From assembly GCF_015160855.1 (NCBI RefSeq), contig NZ_CP063373.1:4154001-4218000 (forward strand): DNA of 64,000 bases, read 5' to 3'. The notes below the pieces were generated by a model. The model was not told where the DNA came from. It was given only the letters and a program-made list of their open reading frames with translations, and ran no database searches. Numbering within the stretch: position 1 is the stretch's first letter; each line of letters starts with the position of its first letter. The position numbers and the translations under genes are program-made. This stretch comes from Streptomyces ferrugineus. Its GTDB lineage: Bacteria > Actinomycetota > Actinomycetes > Streptomycetales > Streptomycetaceae. This document shows, in pieces, positions 43,063 through 50,469 of the stretch.

Positions 43063-43128
43063 GTGTTGCGGGACCGGAGGCTGTTGACGCCTGGAAGTTC
43101 GCGGTGGGTCCGGACGTTGCCTCCAGGT

Positions 43129-43497
43129 ATGAGGATCAGCGAAGCGTCCAGGGTCAGCGGCGTGAGTGCCAGGTCGTTGCGGTACTACGAGGATGAGGGC
43201 TTGATCGTCCCGGGCCGTTTCAGCAACGGGTACCGCGACTACTGCAGGTCGACCATCGACCGGGTCCTCGTCATCCGCTCGCTGCTGGAGTCCGGACTGC
43301 CCGTGCGGTTGATCAAGGAGGTCCTGCCTCATCTCACGGACGGTCCCGATGATGTCGGCACGGACGTGGTGTGCGCGGAGTTCCTGCACGAGGTGCGGAG
43401 TTATCGCGATCGGCTCGCTGCCCGCATCGCCGATCTCAGTGCTCAGCGGGCGGCACTCGACGCCTACCTGCGAGAGGTCCGGCCCACGGACGCATGA
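43129..43497 (+). CDS. MerR-family transcriptional regulator
   Basis: The 122-residue protein has the MerR helix-turn-helix (MRISEASRVSGVSARSLRYY, EDEGLIVPGRF) and a dimerisation helix with LIKEVLPHLTDG. It lacks the cysteines of metal sensors, so it belongs with small-molecule or redox-type MerR proteins. An upstream GTG at 43063 would add residues unlike the family; ATG 43129 gives the canonical N-terminus. It lies 86 bp before the quinone oxidoreductase gene and probably activates it. Confidence 0.9.
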   Translation: MRISEASRVSGVSARSLRYYEDEGLIVPGRFSNGYRDYCRSTIDRVLVIRSLLESGLPVRLIKEVLPHLTDGPDDVGTDVVCAEFLHEVRSYRDRLAARIADLSAQRAALDAYLREVRPTDA

Positions 43498-44946: not shown

Positions 44947-45969
44947 TCAGCGCAGCACGAACCCGGGCGTCATGTCGTCGTCGGGATCGACTACGAACAC
45001 ATGCTCGCCCGTGGCATAGGCGGTCCCGGTCACCATGGGCGTCACCGCGTCCCGGCCGTGTTCGACGCCGCGGCCGATGACGCGGCCGCGGAAGGTGGAG
45101 CCCACGATGGAGTGGTGCACGAGGTGCCGGTCCTCGGTGAGGCGGCCGGTCGCCGCCAGCGTGGCGATGCGCGCGCAGGTCCCGGACCCGCAGGGGGAGC
45201 GGTCGACCTCTCCGTCGGCGAAGACGGTGACGTTGCGCTGGACCGGGTTTCCGGTCTCGTCGTCGCCCAGGTCCTCGAAGAAGATCACGCCGTAGACGCC
45301 GTTCAGGCGTGCGTCGGCCGGATGTTCGGCGTACCTGGTGCCGTTGAGCTCGTACTTCATCTCCCGGCTCAGCTCGATCAGCCTCGGCAGGTCCCGGGCG
45401 GTGACGGTGAGTCCGAGGTCGGCGGCGTCGACGTGGGCGTAGATCGCGCCGCCGAAGCTGATGGCCGTATTGATGGTCCCTGCCGATGTCTCGACCTTCA
45501 CCAGGTCGTGCAGCTGGTAGCTGGGGACGTTGACGAAGTCCACCGATCTCACCTTGCCGTCCGGGCCGGTCGCGACGCGGGCGGTGACGCGGCCGGAGGG
45601 GACGTCGATGACGACGTCGGTGACCCCGCCGTCGGCGATCGGCACCCGGCCCGTCCTGATCGCCCAGGCGCCGAGGGCGATGGTGCCGTGCCCGCAGGCC
45701 GTGGAGAATCCGTCCTTGTGCCAGAAGAGCACGCCGAAGTGTGCGCCGTCGTCGTCGGGTTCGGTGATGAAGCCGCCGTACATGTCGGCGTGGCCGCGCG
45801 GCTCGGAGCACAGCAGTGCCCGCAGTCCGTCGACCGCGGGGTCGCGCATGGCCTCGACCCGCTTGTCGGCGACCGTTCGTGCGTGCAGGGGCGGCACGTC
45901 GGTCACGATGCGGAACGGCTCGCCTGCCGTGTGGTAGTCCACTGTGCGGACCGTGAAGCGGTGCTCCAT
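44947..45969 (-). CDS. Proline racemase family protein (proline racemase/4-hydroxyproline epimerase type)
   Basis: The 340-residue protein has both catalytic Cys: C92 in DGFSTACGHGTIALG and C260 in DRSPCGSGTCARIATL. A Cys/Cys pair is typical of proline racemase and 4-hydroxyproline 2-epimerase; trans-3-hydroxyproline dehydratases usually replace one Cys with Ser or Thr. VDYHTAGEPFRIVTD is the family N-terminus. ATG 45969 follows GGTGGGG. It diverges from an ornithine cyclodeaminase-family gene across a perfect palindrome, indicating shared regulation. Confidence 0.88.
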   Translation of the reverse strand: MEHRFTVRTVDYHTAGEPFRIVTDVPPLHARTVADKRVEAMRDPAVDGLRALLCSEPRGHADMYGGFITEPDDDGAHFGVLFWHKDGFSTACGHGTIALGAWAIRTGRVPIADGGVTDVVIDVPSGRVTARVATGPDGKVRSVDFVNVPSYQLHDLVKVETSAGTINTAISFGGAIYAHVDAADLGLTVTARDLPRLIELSREMKYELNGTRYAEHPADARLNGVYGVIFFEDLGDDETGNPVQRNVTVFADGEVDRSPCGSGTCARIATLAATGRLTEDRHLVHHSIVGSTFRGRVIGRGVEHGRDAVTPMVTGTAYATGEHVFVVDPDDDMTPGFVLR

Positions 45970-46027
45970 GGCTGCCCCACCCCTCTCGCCCGTGCTTCCG
46001 TTTACGGACACCATCAGCGCCAGCATT

Positions 46028-46080
46028 GCCGATCCCCGGTGACAGTGCAATGTTACATTGCACTGTCACCGGGGATCGGC
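46028..46080. promoter_or_regulatory. Perfect 53-nt palindrome between divergent racemase and reductase genes
   Basis: Left arm 46028-46053 and right arm 46055-46080 are exact reverse complements (26 bp each) around a single T at 46054. The AT-rich centre is GTGCAATGTTACATTGCAC, a classic operator core for a GntR/FCD-type dimer. It lies 58 bp upstream of the racemase start and 24 bp upstream of the reductase start, so a bound regulator would cover both promoters; the same sequence in RNA would form a very stable hairpin. Confidence 0.9.
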
Positions 46081-46104
46081 CTGCCTCAACAGGGACGGGA
46101 TTTC

Positions 46105-47028
46105 ATGAAGACCATCAGCCTCAGCGAGCGCGAGGTCCGTGCGGCCGTGTCGATGCGCGAGGCGATCGACGCCGTGCGTCGCGGCTTCGTCGGCCTCGCG
46201 AACGGCGAGTTCGAGATGCCGACGCGTACCGCGCTGCGGGACGGTCGGTTCCTCGTGATGTCGGCCCACCATCGGCCGACCGAGTCGGCGATGATCAAGA
46301 CCCTGAGCGTCAACTTCGACCGTGTGCCCGCCATCACCGGCACCGTCGTCTGGAGCACCCTGGATCGGCTCGACCACCTGATCGCAGACGCCGCCGCCGT
46401 CACGACCCTGCGCACGGGCGCGGCGGTCGGCGTCGCCACCGACCTCTTCGCCGCTCCCGACGCCGACCGGCTCACCCTGATCGGCGCCGGCGGCCAGGCC
46501 CTCGACCAGGTGCGCGCCGTCCACACCGTTCGCCCCCTGCGGCACCTGACCATCGTAGGCACCGGCACGGGACGAGCCCACGCGCTGGCGGACACCCTGC
46601 GAGCCGAACTCGACGGCACCGAGATCAGGACCGCCACCGACCCGGCCTCGGCCGTCGCCGACGCTCACATCGTGTGCTGTGCCACCCCGGCGACCAGCCC
46701 GCTCTTCCCCGGGTCCGCCCTTCCGGCTCGGGTGCACGTCAACGCCATCGGCGCCTTCCGTCCCTCCATGCGGGAGCTGCCGGACGAACTGCTGGCCACC
46801 GGCACCGTGATCATCGATGAACTCGGCGCCGTCCTCGAAGAGTCCGGCGAGATCATCCACGCTCTCCAGGCCGGCGCCATCACCCAGGACGACCTCACCG
46901 AACTGGGCACCGCCCTGACCGCGGCCCCACCGGCCCCGCGTGGCAAGCGCACGGTGTTCAAGACCGTCGGTGTCGCCATGCAGGACTGGGCCATTGCCCG
47001 CCTTCTGGCCGACAAGTTCCTCTGCTGA
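46105..47028 (+). CDS. Ornithine cyclodeaminase/mu-crystallin family protein (ketimine reductase-like)
   Basis: The 307-residue protein has SMREAIDAVRRGFVGLANGE, the substrate segment MSAHHRPTESAMIKTLSVNF, and the NAD(P) motif LTLIGAGGQALDQVRAVHTV. The family includes ornithine cyclodeaminase, alanine dehydrogenase and delta-1-pyrroline-2-carboxylate reductase; the last is the usual partner of proline racemase-family enzymes in hydroxyproline use and is the best context fit. ATG 46105 follows AGGGACGGGA. The gene ends just before a decayed region. Confidence 0.85.
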   Translation: MKTISLSEREVRAAVSMREAIDAVRRGFVGLANGEFEMPTRTALRDGRFLVMSAHHRPTESAMIKTLSVNFDRVPAITGTVVWSTLDRLDHLIADAAAVTTLRTGAAVGVATDLFAAPDADRLTLIGAGGQALDQVRAVHTVRPLRHLTIVGTGTGRAHALADTLRAELDGTEIRTATDPASAVADAHIVCCATPATSPLFPGSALPARVHVNAIGAFRPSMRELPDELLATGTVIIDELGAVLEESGEIIHALQAGAITQDDLTELGTALTAAPPAPRGKRTVFKTVGVAMQDWAIARLLADKFLC

Positions 47029-47600: not shown

Positions 47601-47710
47601 CCAACTCGTCACCATGCAGATCGCGTTCGACATCGGCTGCCCCACCGACGACGCCTGCCTGATGAGCCCTCGACGAAGTGGCTGTCGTGCCGGATGCCCG
47701 CAAAGGAAAG

Positions 47711-47734
47711 GGCAAGGAGAACTCTCTCCTTGCC
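47711..47734 (+). promoter_or_regulatory. Perfect inverted repeat upstream of the rifampin phosphotransferase
   Basis: GGCAAGGAGA (47711-47720) and TCTCCTTGCC (47725-47734) form a 10-bp perfect stem with an ACTC loop. It lies 24 bp upstream of the RAE-like site. It may be an operator or a terminator of upstream read-through; no T-tract follows. Confidence 0.55.
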
Positions 47735-47757
47735 ACTCTCAACGTATAGCGCGCCGG

Positions 47758-47776
47758 GGGGCTTGCCGCAAGACCC
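47758..47776 (+). promoter_or_regulatory. Rifamycin-associated element (RAE)-like site
   Basis: GGGGCTTGCCGCAAGACCC is a 19-bp sequence with a CTTGC-C-GCAAG dyad flanked by G and C runs. From memory it matches the form of the 19-bp RAE that precedes rifamycin-inactivating genes in actinomycetes and makes them rifampin-inducible. TATAGC at 47745-47750 could be the -10 box, placing the element at the start of the transcript. It is 95 bp before the GTG start. Confidence 0.7.
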
Positions 47777-47871
47777 GGGTCACGGCGCACAATCGTCGGC
47801 CGAGGCCACAACCTGCGGAAATGGGGGAAGCACGACGTGCGTGCGTTGGGAAAGCGACCAGAGGCGGGGAC

Positions 47872-50469
47872 GTGAACGAGCAGTACGTGTTGGACCTTCA
47901 AGAGGTGGACGAGACGCAGGTCGCGGTCGTTGGCGGCAAGGGCGCGCACCTGGGCGGGCTGTCGCGGATCGAAGGCATCCGTGTGCCGGGTGGCTTCTGC
48001 GTGACGACGGACGCCTTCCGCCGGATCATGGCTGAGGCTCCGGACATCGACGATCGGCTCGATCAGCTCTCCCGCACGAACCCGGACGACCGGGAGGCGA
48101 TCCGTGCGCTCGGCGCGCGGATTCGCCGGACCATCGAAGAGATCGCCATTCCGGGCGATCTCGCGGCGGCGATCACCCGCGCCCACGCCCGGCTCGGCGA
48201 GCAGGCCGCCTGCGCCGTCCGATCCAGCGCGACGGCGGAGGATCTGCCGACGGCCTCCTTCGCCGGCCAGCAGGACACCTACCTGAACGTCATGGGGCCG
48301 ACGGAGATCCTCCGGCACGTCAGCCGGTGCTGGGCCTCGCTGTTCACCGAGCGGGCCGTGACCTACCGCCAGCGCAACGGCATCGACCACCGTACGGTCC
48401 ATATGGCGGTGGTCGTGCAGCAGATGGTCTTCCCGGATGCGGCCGGCATCCTGTTCACGGCCGACCCCGTCACGGGCAATCGGAAGGTCGCCACCGTGGA
48501 CGCCGGTTTCGGCCTCGGTGAGGCACTGGTCTCCGGCCTGGTGAACCCGGACGTCTTCAAGGTGCGACACGGCGAAGTCGTCGTCAGGACGATCGCCGCC
48601 AAACAGCGTGCCGTGCTCGCCCTTCCGGCTGGCGGGACGCGGGAGGTGGCGATCGACTCGCAGCGGCAGGAGCAGCCGGCGCTGACGGATGCGCAGGTCG
48701 TGCGGCTCGTGGAGCTCGGCCGGCGGATCGAAGCGCACTTCGGCCGCCCGCAGGACATCGAATGGTGCCTGGTCGACGATGACTTCCGGATCGTTCAGAG
48801 CCGGCCGATCACGACCCTGTTTCCCATCCCCGAGACCGACGACCAGGAGAACCACGTCTACGTCTCCGTCGGCCATCAGCAGATGATGACCGACCCCATG
48901 AAGCCCCTGGGGCTCTCCATGTGGCAGCTGACGGCCATGGCACCGATGCACGAGGCCGGCGGGAGGCTGTTCGTCGATGTCACCCGGCGCCTGGCCTCGC
49001 CCGCGAGCCGAGCCGTCCTCCTGGACCTGATGGGGAGGGGAGATCCGCTGGTCAGGGACGCGCTGGAGACCGTACTCGACCGCGACGACTTCGTCCCGTC
49101 GCTCCCGGACGCGAGTCCCGGCGGACCTCCGGCCGGCGGCGCGTCCGCGCCGATCGCGACCGATCCCGCCATCGTCACCGAGCTGATCGAACGCAGCCAG
49201 GCGTCCATCGCCGCCCTGGAGCGCGACATCCGGACGAAGACCGGACCGGCGTTGTTCGACTTCCTGCTGGAGGCCGTCGAGGAGCACAAGCGAGTCCTCA
49301 GTGATCCGCTGAGCTTCCAGGCGATCATGGCGGGGATGGAGGCCACCTGGTGGCTCAACGACAAGCTGCGGGAGTGGCTCGGCGAGAAGAACGCGGCTGA
49401 CACGCTCACGCTGTCCGCCCCCGACAACGTCACCTCGGAGATGGGACTGGCGCTGCTCGACGTCGCGGACGTCATCCGCCGGCGGCCGGAGGTGGTGGCG
49501 TTCCTCCAGGGCGTCGAGGACGAGGACTTCCTGGACGAGCTGCCGAAACTCCCGGGCGGGGTCGAAGCGCGGGACGCCATCGAGGCCTACCTCGACCGGT
49601 ACGGCATGCGCTGCGTCGGCGAGATCGACATCACGAGGCCGCGTTGGCGCGAGCGCCCCACCACGCTCGTGCCCGTGATCCTCGACAACGTCAGGATCTT
49701 CGAGCACGGTGCCGCCGAACGGCGCTTCGAGGAAGGCCGGCAGAAGGCGCGGAAGAAGGAACAGGACGTTCTGTCACGCCTGCGCGCCCTGCCGGACGGG
49801 GACCGGAAAGCCGACGAGACCAAGCGGATGATCGACCGGGTCCGCACCTTCATCGGGTACCGGGAGTACCCGAAGTACGGCATCATCAGCCGCTACTTCG
49901 TCTACAAGCAGGCCCTGCTGGACGAGGCCGAGCGCCTCGTGCAGGCCGATGTCCTTCCCGCGAAGGAGGACATCTTCTACCTCACCTTCCAGGAACTCCA
50001 CGACGTCGTGCGCACGAACCAGGTCGACGGCCGGCTCATCCAGCAGCGCAAGGACGCGTTCCGGTCGTACCACGCGCTCACACCGCCCCGGGTCCTCACC
50101 TCGGACGGCGAGGCCCTCACCGGGGCGTACCGGCGCGACGACGTGCCGGCCGGCGCCCTGATCGGCGTACCGGTCTCCGCCGGGACCATCGAGGGAAGGG
50201 CCCGCGTCATCCTCGACATGGCGAAGGCCGATCTCGAGGCGGGCGACATCCTGGTCACAGCCCACACGGACCCCAGCTGGTCGCCGCTGTTCGTCGGCAT
50301 CGCGGGCCTGGTGACGGAGGTGGGCGGCCTGATGACCCATGGTGCGGTGATCGCCCGGGAGTACGGCCTGCCGGCCGTCGTGGGCGTCGAGCAGGCCACC
50401 CGGCTGATCCGGGACGGACAGCGGATCCGCGTGCACGGAACCGACGGCTACGTCGAGATACTTGCGTGA
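47872..50469 (+). CDS. rph: Rifampin phosphotransferase
   Basis: The 865-residue protein has the three-domain build of Rph: an ATP-binding domain (about 1-315, GGKGAHLGGLSRIEGIRVPG, ACAVRSSATAEDLPTASFAG), a rifampin-binding helical domain (about 330-750) and a phosphohistidine swivelling domain with H823 in GGLMTHGAVIAREYGLPAV. It transfers the beta-phosphate of ATP to the C21 hydroxyl of rifamycins, inactivating them. The length agrees with characterised Rph proteins. GTG 47872 follows GAGGCGGGGA. The upstream RAE-like element predicts rifamycin induction. Confidence 0.93.
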   Translation: MNEQYVLDLQEVDETQVAVVGGKGAHLGGLSRIEGIRVPGGFCVTTDAFRRIMAEAPDIDDRLDQLSRTNPDDREAIRALGARIRRTIEEIAIPGDLAAAITRAHARLGEQAACAVRSSATAEDLPTASFAGQQDTYLNVMGPTEILRHVSRCWASLFTERAVTYRQRNGIDHRTVHMAVVVQQMVFPDAAGILFTADPVTGNRKVATVDAGFGLGEALVSGLVNPDVFKVRHGEVVVRTIAAKQRAVLALPAGGTREVAIDSQRQEQPALTDAQVVRLVELGRRIEAHFGRPQDIEWCLVDDDFRIVQSRPITTLFPIPETDDQENHVYVSVGHQQMMTDPMKPLGLSMWQLTAMAPMHEAGGRLFVDVTRRLASPASRAVLLDLMGRGDPLVRDALETVLDRDDFVPSLPDASPGGPPAGGASAPIATDPAIVTELIERSQASIAALERDIRTKTGPALFDFLLEAVEEHKRVLSDPLSFQAIMAGMEATWWLNDKLREWLGEKNAADTLTLSAPDNVTSEMGLALLDVADVIRRRPEVVAFLQGVEDEDFLDELPKLPGGVEARDAIEAYLDRYGMRCVGEIDITRPRWRERPTTLVPVILDNVRIFEHGAAERRFEEGRQKARKKEQDVLSRLRALPDGDRKADETKRMIDRVRTFIGYREYPKYGIISRYFVYKQALLDEAERLVQADVLPAKEDIFYLTFQELHDVVRTNQVDGRLIQQRKDAFRSYHALTPPRVLTSDGEALTGAYRRDDVPAGALIGVPVSAGTIEGRARVILDMAKADLEAGDILVTAHTDPSWSPLFVGIAGLVTEVGGLMTHGAVIAREYGLPAVVGVEQATRLIRDGQRIRVHGTDGYVEILA

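Follow-up and report, generated by a model that had tools for sequence, protein, structure and literature searches.

We analyzed a stretch of 64,000 nucleotides of Streptomyces ferrugineus (contig NZ_CP063373.1, positions 4,154,001 to 4,218,000 of the forward strand), referred to here as the window, which contains a divergently transcribed gene pair of the proline racemase/hydroxyproline epimerase and ornithine cyclodeaminase/mu-crystallin families. Table 1 lists the features of this locus. The gap between the two genes measures 135 nt (45970 to 46104), is flanked by an ATG at 45969 on the minus strand (racemase) and another at 46105 on the plus strand (reductase), and encloses the whole of a perfect palindrome, the center of which lies 85 nt from the racemase start codon and 51 nt from that of the reductase. 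Its two 26-nt arms (46028 to 46053 and 46055 to 46080) are 100% complementary, with a single T between them. The geometry described in the initial annotation was thereby confirmed, and its placement of the palindrome between divergent racemase and reductase genes agreed with the domain matches, PF05544 on the minus strand and PF02423 on the plus strand.

Table 1 Features of the divergent racemase/reductase locus (positions counted from the first nucleotide of the window)
Feature	Position	Strand	Basis or remark
Proline racemase/hydroxyproline epimerase family gene, 340 aa	44947..45969	-	PF05544 Pro_racemase, E 2.2e-78
Perfect palindrome, 53 nt	46028..46080	.	26-bp arms around T46054
Left outer arm	46028..46042	.	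Symmetric with right outer arm, 15/15 pairs
GTGAC box, possible extra half-site	46039..46043	.	Centered 13 nt left of operator center; weak
Candidate HypR-type operator, inner 23 nt CAGTGCAATGTTACATTGCACTG	46043..46065	.	GT-N-AC core 46052-46056; published HypR consensus
Possible extended -10 TGTTACATT for reductase gene	46051..46059	+	Overlaps operator center; by eye, inference only
GTCAC box, possible extra half-site	46065..46069	.	Centered 13 nt right of operator center; weak
Right outer arm	46066..46080	.	15/15 pairs with left outer arm
Ornithine cyclodeaminase/mu-crystallin family reductase gene, 307 aa	46105..47028	+	PF02423 OCD_Mu_crystall, E 1.8e-39

Alignment with the proline racemase 7pb3 placed a cysteine at both catalytic positions of the racemase-family protein, while 6r76 has a threonine at the second of them. 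According to the part of PMC4113996 available to us, such a Cys/Cys pair fits a racemase or a 4-hydroxyproline epimerase more than a 3-hydroxyproline dehydratase; the best NCBIfam model for the protein was trans-3-hydroxyproline dehydratase, below the cut-off. The best solved relative of the reductase is a Delta1-pyrroline-2-carboxylate reductase. By family only (PF05544 and PF02423), the two enzymes would fit hydroxyproline/proline metabolism. Downstream of the reductase gene, positions 47614 to 50469 matched a rifamycin-inactivating phosphotransferase model above its cut-off.

In order to put the palindrome into perspective, perfect inverted repeats with arms of at least 20 nt and loops of up to 12 nt were collected from 1,201,000 bases, comprising the window and 57 further stretches (ca. 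12% of this genome). Six were found, and the arms of the palindrome were the longest, although the window had been selected for containing it and it is hence no random draw within this sample. The remaining five were one loopless 46-nt palindrome and four repeats with loops of 3 to 4 nt. With the first 400 kb of the sample as training data, a first-order Markov model never produced a perfect arm longer than 13 nt in 2 Mb, which rules out a chance origin. Three long perfect hairpins of the genome sample, with 3- to 4-nt loops, resembled terminators (L109:19776-19823, L170:524-574, and L149:18954-18999). The second tight perfect palindrome, of 46 nt (L113:14536-14581, corresponding to G000:C1:264536-264581), has at its center TGTTTCACGTGAAACA, which we take to be the parS sequence, and is located just beyond the 3' end of a gene with, as judged by eye, a tRNA nucleotidyltransferase-like product. 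It is another case, within the same genome, of a protein-binding core set in longer perfect arms.

The palindrome is also unique in sequence. Searching the 9.96-Mb genome with its 19-nt core, as the initial annotation had proposed, returned this single place with up to 3 mismatches allowed, and a 20-mer spanning the arm and the edge of the core had six other matches, every one of them at 3 mismatches. A near-match search for plasmid copies of the intergenic DNA around the palindrome yielded none, and the exact sequence TGCAATGTNACATTGCA was present in 1 of 295 genomes of the genus, i.e., in this genome only. A repeated mobile palindrome (REP/MITE-like) was therefore rejected, the core occurring in one place at up to 3 mismatches and the arm-plus-core 20-mer having no second copy at up to 2.

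In Streptomyces coelicolor, HypR (SCO6294) is a FadR-subfamily GntR repressor of L-hydroxyproline use whose footprint was mapped to TACAATGTCAC and whose consensus reads CTNTGC(A/C)ATGTCAC; the authors called the symmetry of the site unclear, its targets include hypR itself and the collagenase gene SCO5912, and some, not all, of its sites overlap the -10 or the start of the target promoter (PMC6608401, in the part available to us). Judged by sequence, the 23-nt center of the palindrome, CAGTGCAATGTTACATTGCACTG, is a symmetric form of this HypR site. Read on both strands, the core is CAGTGCAATGT(T/A)AC, with one mismatch to the HypR consensus when the central position is left free and two when the C is required. 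The GntR-type character attributed to the core in the initial annotation was thus matched to a specific GntR/FadR-type site. GT and AC are mostly separated by 3 nt, and in several groups by 2 nt, in the FadR-subfamily sites covered by the accessible text of PMC4494728, whereas the palindromic GT-N-AC found here has a spacing of 1 nt and falls outside that range. The one-base spacing is, however, common to the footprinted HypR site. As far as the available part of PMC6608401 goes, the likeness to the HypR operators of S. coelicolor extends to the half-site TGCAATGT-N-AC with its one-base GT/AC spacing, to the hydroxyproline/proline-family genes and the collagenase near the sites, and to a HypR-like regulator in the same genome. 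Unlike those sites, the one described here is fully symmetric, is embedded in a 53-nt palindrome, and lies between divergent racemase and reductase genes at a great distance from hypR. Single-site FadR-subfamily divergons (PMC4494728, same limitation of the text) similarly have one site near the middle of the divergent intergenic region, but in our case the divergon lacks a regulator gene and the palindrome is longer.

Allowing up to one mismatch with the center free, the HypR consensus had no match in a background sample of 1.137 Mb and occurred at 10 places genome-wide, the palindrome included, versus 4 for the reversed control. Its two exact matches in the genome, both outside the palindrome (center free; L177 and L178), fall inside a gene or at its start; these genes, judged by eye only, were not recognized as hydroxyproline genes, so that the motif alone is not specific. 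The half-site TGCWATGTNAC, in which the W was picked after the collagenase site had been seen, was found at four places in 9.96 Mb and at none with the reversed control: in the palindrome, in the upstream regions of hypR and of an M9 collagenase gene, and in one called coding frame (L188, judged by eye only).

As for the regulator, no GntR gene adjoins the pair, in agreement with the initial annotation, and its prediction of control from elsewhere in the genome now has a good candidate on the basis of homology, a HypR-like gene on the minus strand (G000:C1:6452585-6453280) 2.25 Mb from the palindrome. There are 33 FCD-type GntR genes in this genome. Over 204 aa, the HypR-like protein shares 65% identity with a GntR encoded within a racemase cluster of another Streptomyces (L124), with which it also has the helix region YSAPTLA..(F/Y)GVSATPVREAM in common. 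Its neighbors are Pro_racemase, DHDPS, Pyr_redox, and DAO genes, much of the gene make-up described for the S. coelicolor HypR operon in the accessible text. Its assignment as HypR is by homology to the L124 regulator and by the families of its neighbors. The sites in its own cluster are more degenerate, differing from the symmetric 23-mer at 6, 7, and 8 of 22 positions.

We therefore favor, with a probability of roughly three in four, a reading in which the center of the palindrome would be the operator through which a distantly encoded HypR represses both divergent genes. A HypR dimer, supplied from the remote gene, would bind the symmetric core TGCAATGT-T-ACATTGCA, a single site that would serve both genes, and once bound would keep the racemase/epimerase gene and that of the pyrroline-carboxylate-type reductase repressed for as long as neither hydroxyproline nor a metabolite further down the pathway, the presumed inducer, is present. 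The two genes appear to be an orphan part of the HypR regulon, that is, a putative orphan divergon. It is distinctly unlikely, in our view, that the operator belongs to another regulator, either a second HypR-like GntR (L137:9063-9905, corresponding to G000:C1:7154062-7154904), which shows 48% identity and a YSAPALGERFGVSATPVREA helix, or the MerR gene at 43063 to 43497, which is, within the scanned surroundings of the pair, the regulator gene closest to it. The 450 nt upstream of the second GntR contain no HypR-type site (the best has 8 mismatches of 18), its neighbors do not appear to be hydroxyproline genes by eye from their translations, and no evidence ties MerR to the operator. The second HypR-like GntR is a weaker candidate binder than the HypR-like protein described above.

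HypR-type sites recur at racemase loci of other Streptomyces. Among 12 regulators with a YSAP/YPAP helix, many of them close orthologues, eight had such a site in the 450 nt upstream at up to 4 mismatches of 18, a further one had a site at 6 mismatches, and three had none. A perfect HypR consensus, CTGTGCAATGTCAC, precedes the closest racemase found (L194/L202, at 69%; the search found none closer), and the site CAGTGCAATGTTAC at L074 is identical to the half-site in the window. In Amycolatopsis (L056), a HypR-type GntR gene, 58% identical to the HypR of this genome, is divergent from a racemase gene followed by a reductase gene, with a HypR-type site between the GntR and the enzyme genes. Genes were called by GC3, with some calls wrong in frame or start. 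The consensus at up to one mismatch was found in the 400 nt upstream at only 3 of 28 racemase loci (L066, rechecked, was negative), compared with one match in the remaining 101 kb of the same loci, and in the 300 nt upstream at 1 of 23 reductase loci (L058). These few loci count against the HypR reading. The 23 reductase loci consist of L005 and 22 of 24 relatives, two partial or remote matches (L063 and L064) being left out. Upstream of the Amycolatopsis jejuensis reductase (59%; L058:5921), CCAGTGCTATTGCACTGTGCCATGGCACTGG forms a longer imperfect palindrome that matches the HypR consensus at one mismatch.

Another arrangement was found in some other species. Ten of the 23 reductase loci had a different operator upstream, nine of them together with a different GntR at 72% or more; in the stretches examined, three of the 23 had a racemase gene (L047, L054, and L056). 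At L047, L119, and L203, this different FCD-GntR gene sits between the racemase and the reductase. Three of four regulators with a VIN/VIS helix, a set again including many close orthologues, had a GTAAGGTGTAATACCTTAC-type operator within 450 nt upstream, and at the fourth locus (L061, start miscalled) an operator of this type precedes the reductase. Like the pair in the window, this local module has a single control region flanked by genes of these two enzyme families, but it has its own FCD-GntR between the genes and operators like GTAAGGTGTAATACCTTAC, neither of which was found here: the operator GTAAGGTNTNATACCTTAC had no match within 3 mismatches in this genome, and the local regulator was not found among loci that together include all 33 FCD genes, where HypR itself was the best match (44%). 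At L203, operator-like sequences GTAAGGTATTACACCTTAC and GTAATGTATTACACCTAAC lie on either side of the local GntR gene (L203:6752 and L203:7604). The reductases of L041, L042, and L062 (86 to 87% identity) have neither the palindrome nor a racemase in the stretch examined, which indicates that the reductase moves between contexts.

In the outer arms of the palindrome, all 15 pairs are matched, compared to 0 to 7 (mean, 4.6 of 15) at 31 other HypR-type sites. These sites were selected for resembling the window, and close orthologues are among them, which makes their core symmetry partly circular. Outer symmetry is therefore not part of the HypR-type operator elsewhere, and a reading of the arms as belonging to an extended HypR operator was rejected. 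Elsewhere in the genome, the 15-nt outer arm recurs exactly only once, as a single copy (L093, near 7645322), and copies with one mismatch are found at L090 and L162; our scans showed no palindrome around any of them. Conservation at orthologous loci was rejected as well, the arms being absent upstream at the 23 reductase loci, among which L060 has a match beginning at residue 118, so that its true upstream lies outside the view. Retention of the arms in relatives, which the initial annotation had set as the test of its reading, was accordingly not observed, with no really close relative among these loci; at other racemase loci, the core type alone recurred.

Could the arms nevertheless have been selected for binding? 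A compound operator would have three GT-N-AC boxes at a 13-bp spacing (46041, 46054, and 46067) occupied by cooperative extra HypR subunits. The three boxes are indeed present at this spacing, a second box at 13 nt also occurs at 7 of 34 HypR-type sites, and extra weaker half-sites 7 to 12 nt from the center are reported for GntR-family sites in the available part of PMC4494728. However, those seven sites are one orthologous set with a degenerate central core (TTCAC), one of the two side boxes in the window is forced by symmetry, and neither arm resembles a half-site in its outermost 11 bp, and we regard the compound operator as unlikely. A functional role of the arms, with the three boxes forming a HypR array that works cooperatively and may be linked to cruciform extrusion, appears quite improbable. 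At L123:6858 and its orthologous sites (7 loci), a second GTTAC box (GTAAC on the other strand) lies exactly 13 nt from the first.

The -10 element of Streptomyces promoters takes the form TAnnnT, and by eye TACATT is found at the center of the palindrome; a simple promoter scan of the palindrome region found no promoter. An intrinsic terminator was rejected, since the stem is not followed by a run of T. The folding of the region is strong, with -56 kcal/mol and a z score of -8.05 for RNA of positions 46020 to 46110, as would suit an RNA hairpin whose 25-bp stem, present in both leaders, stabilized the mRNA or controlled translation. Such folding is nonetheless expected of any perfect palindrome, both transcription starts would have to lie outside it while the only plausible -10 (by eye) is at its center, and no Rfam family reached the gathering score, so that we hold the hairpin to be very improbable. 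The matches below that score were mainly to microRNA hairpins, as long hairpins give, and a known RNA family was rejected. Along similar lines, the perfect symmetry, the AT-rich center, and a DNA strand fold of -34.1 kcal/mol would be compatible with a cruciform acting through supercoiling between the divergent promoters, but with the arms lacking upstream of the reductases at the 23 loci and the outer symmetry lacking at the 31 other HypR-type sites, this is extremely unlikely.

Under the preferred reading, that of an operator for a distant HypR, recognition probably does not require the 15 bp at the outer end of each arm. The extra-long arms are unusual and perhaps just a copying accident. 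Their simplest origin would be a template switch nucleated between the inverted halves of the operator, by which one flank was copied onto the other; a single such event would yield arms of this kind in one step. This is a mechanism that published work on template switching and hairpins reportedly covers.

If this interpretation is right, the palindrome would provide a symmetric version of the HypR site, whose symmetry had been reported as unclear, and would add a candidate outlying gene pair to the HypR regulon. The comparison with the local module suggests that control changed over from a GntR dedicated to the module to a repressor that is shared and encoded far away. Were the three-box array true, it would act as one switch closing both divergent promoters, and more tightly so than elsewhere in the regulon. 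The arms, for their part, offer a clean test of whether long perfect palindromic operators arise via template switching or via selection.
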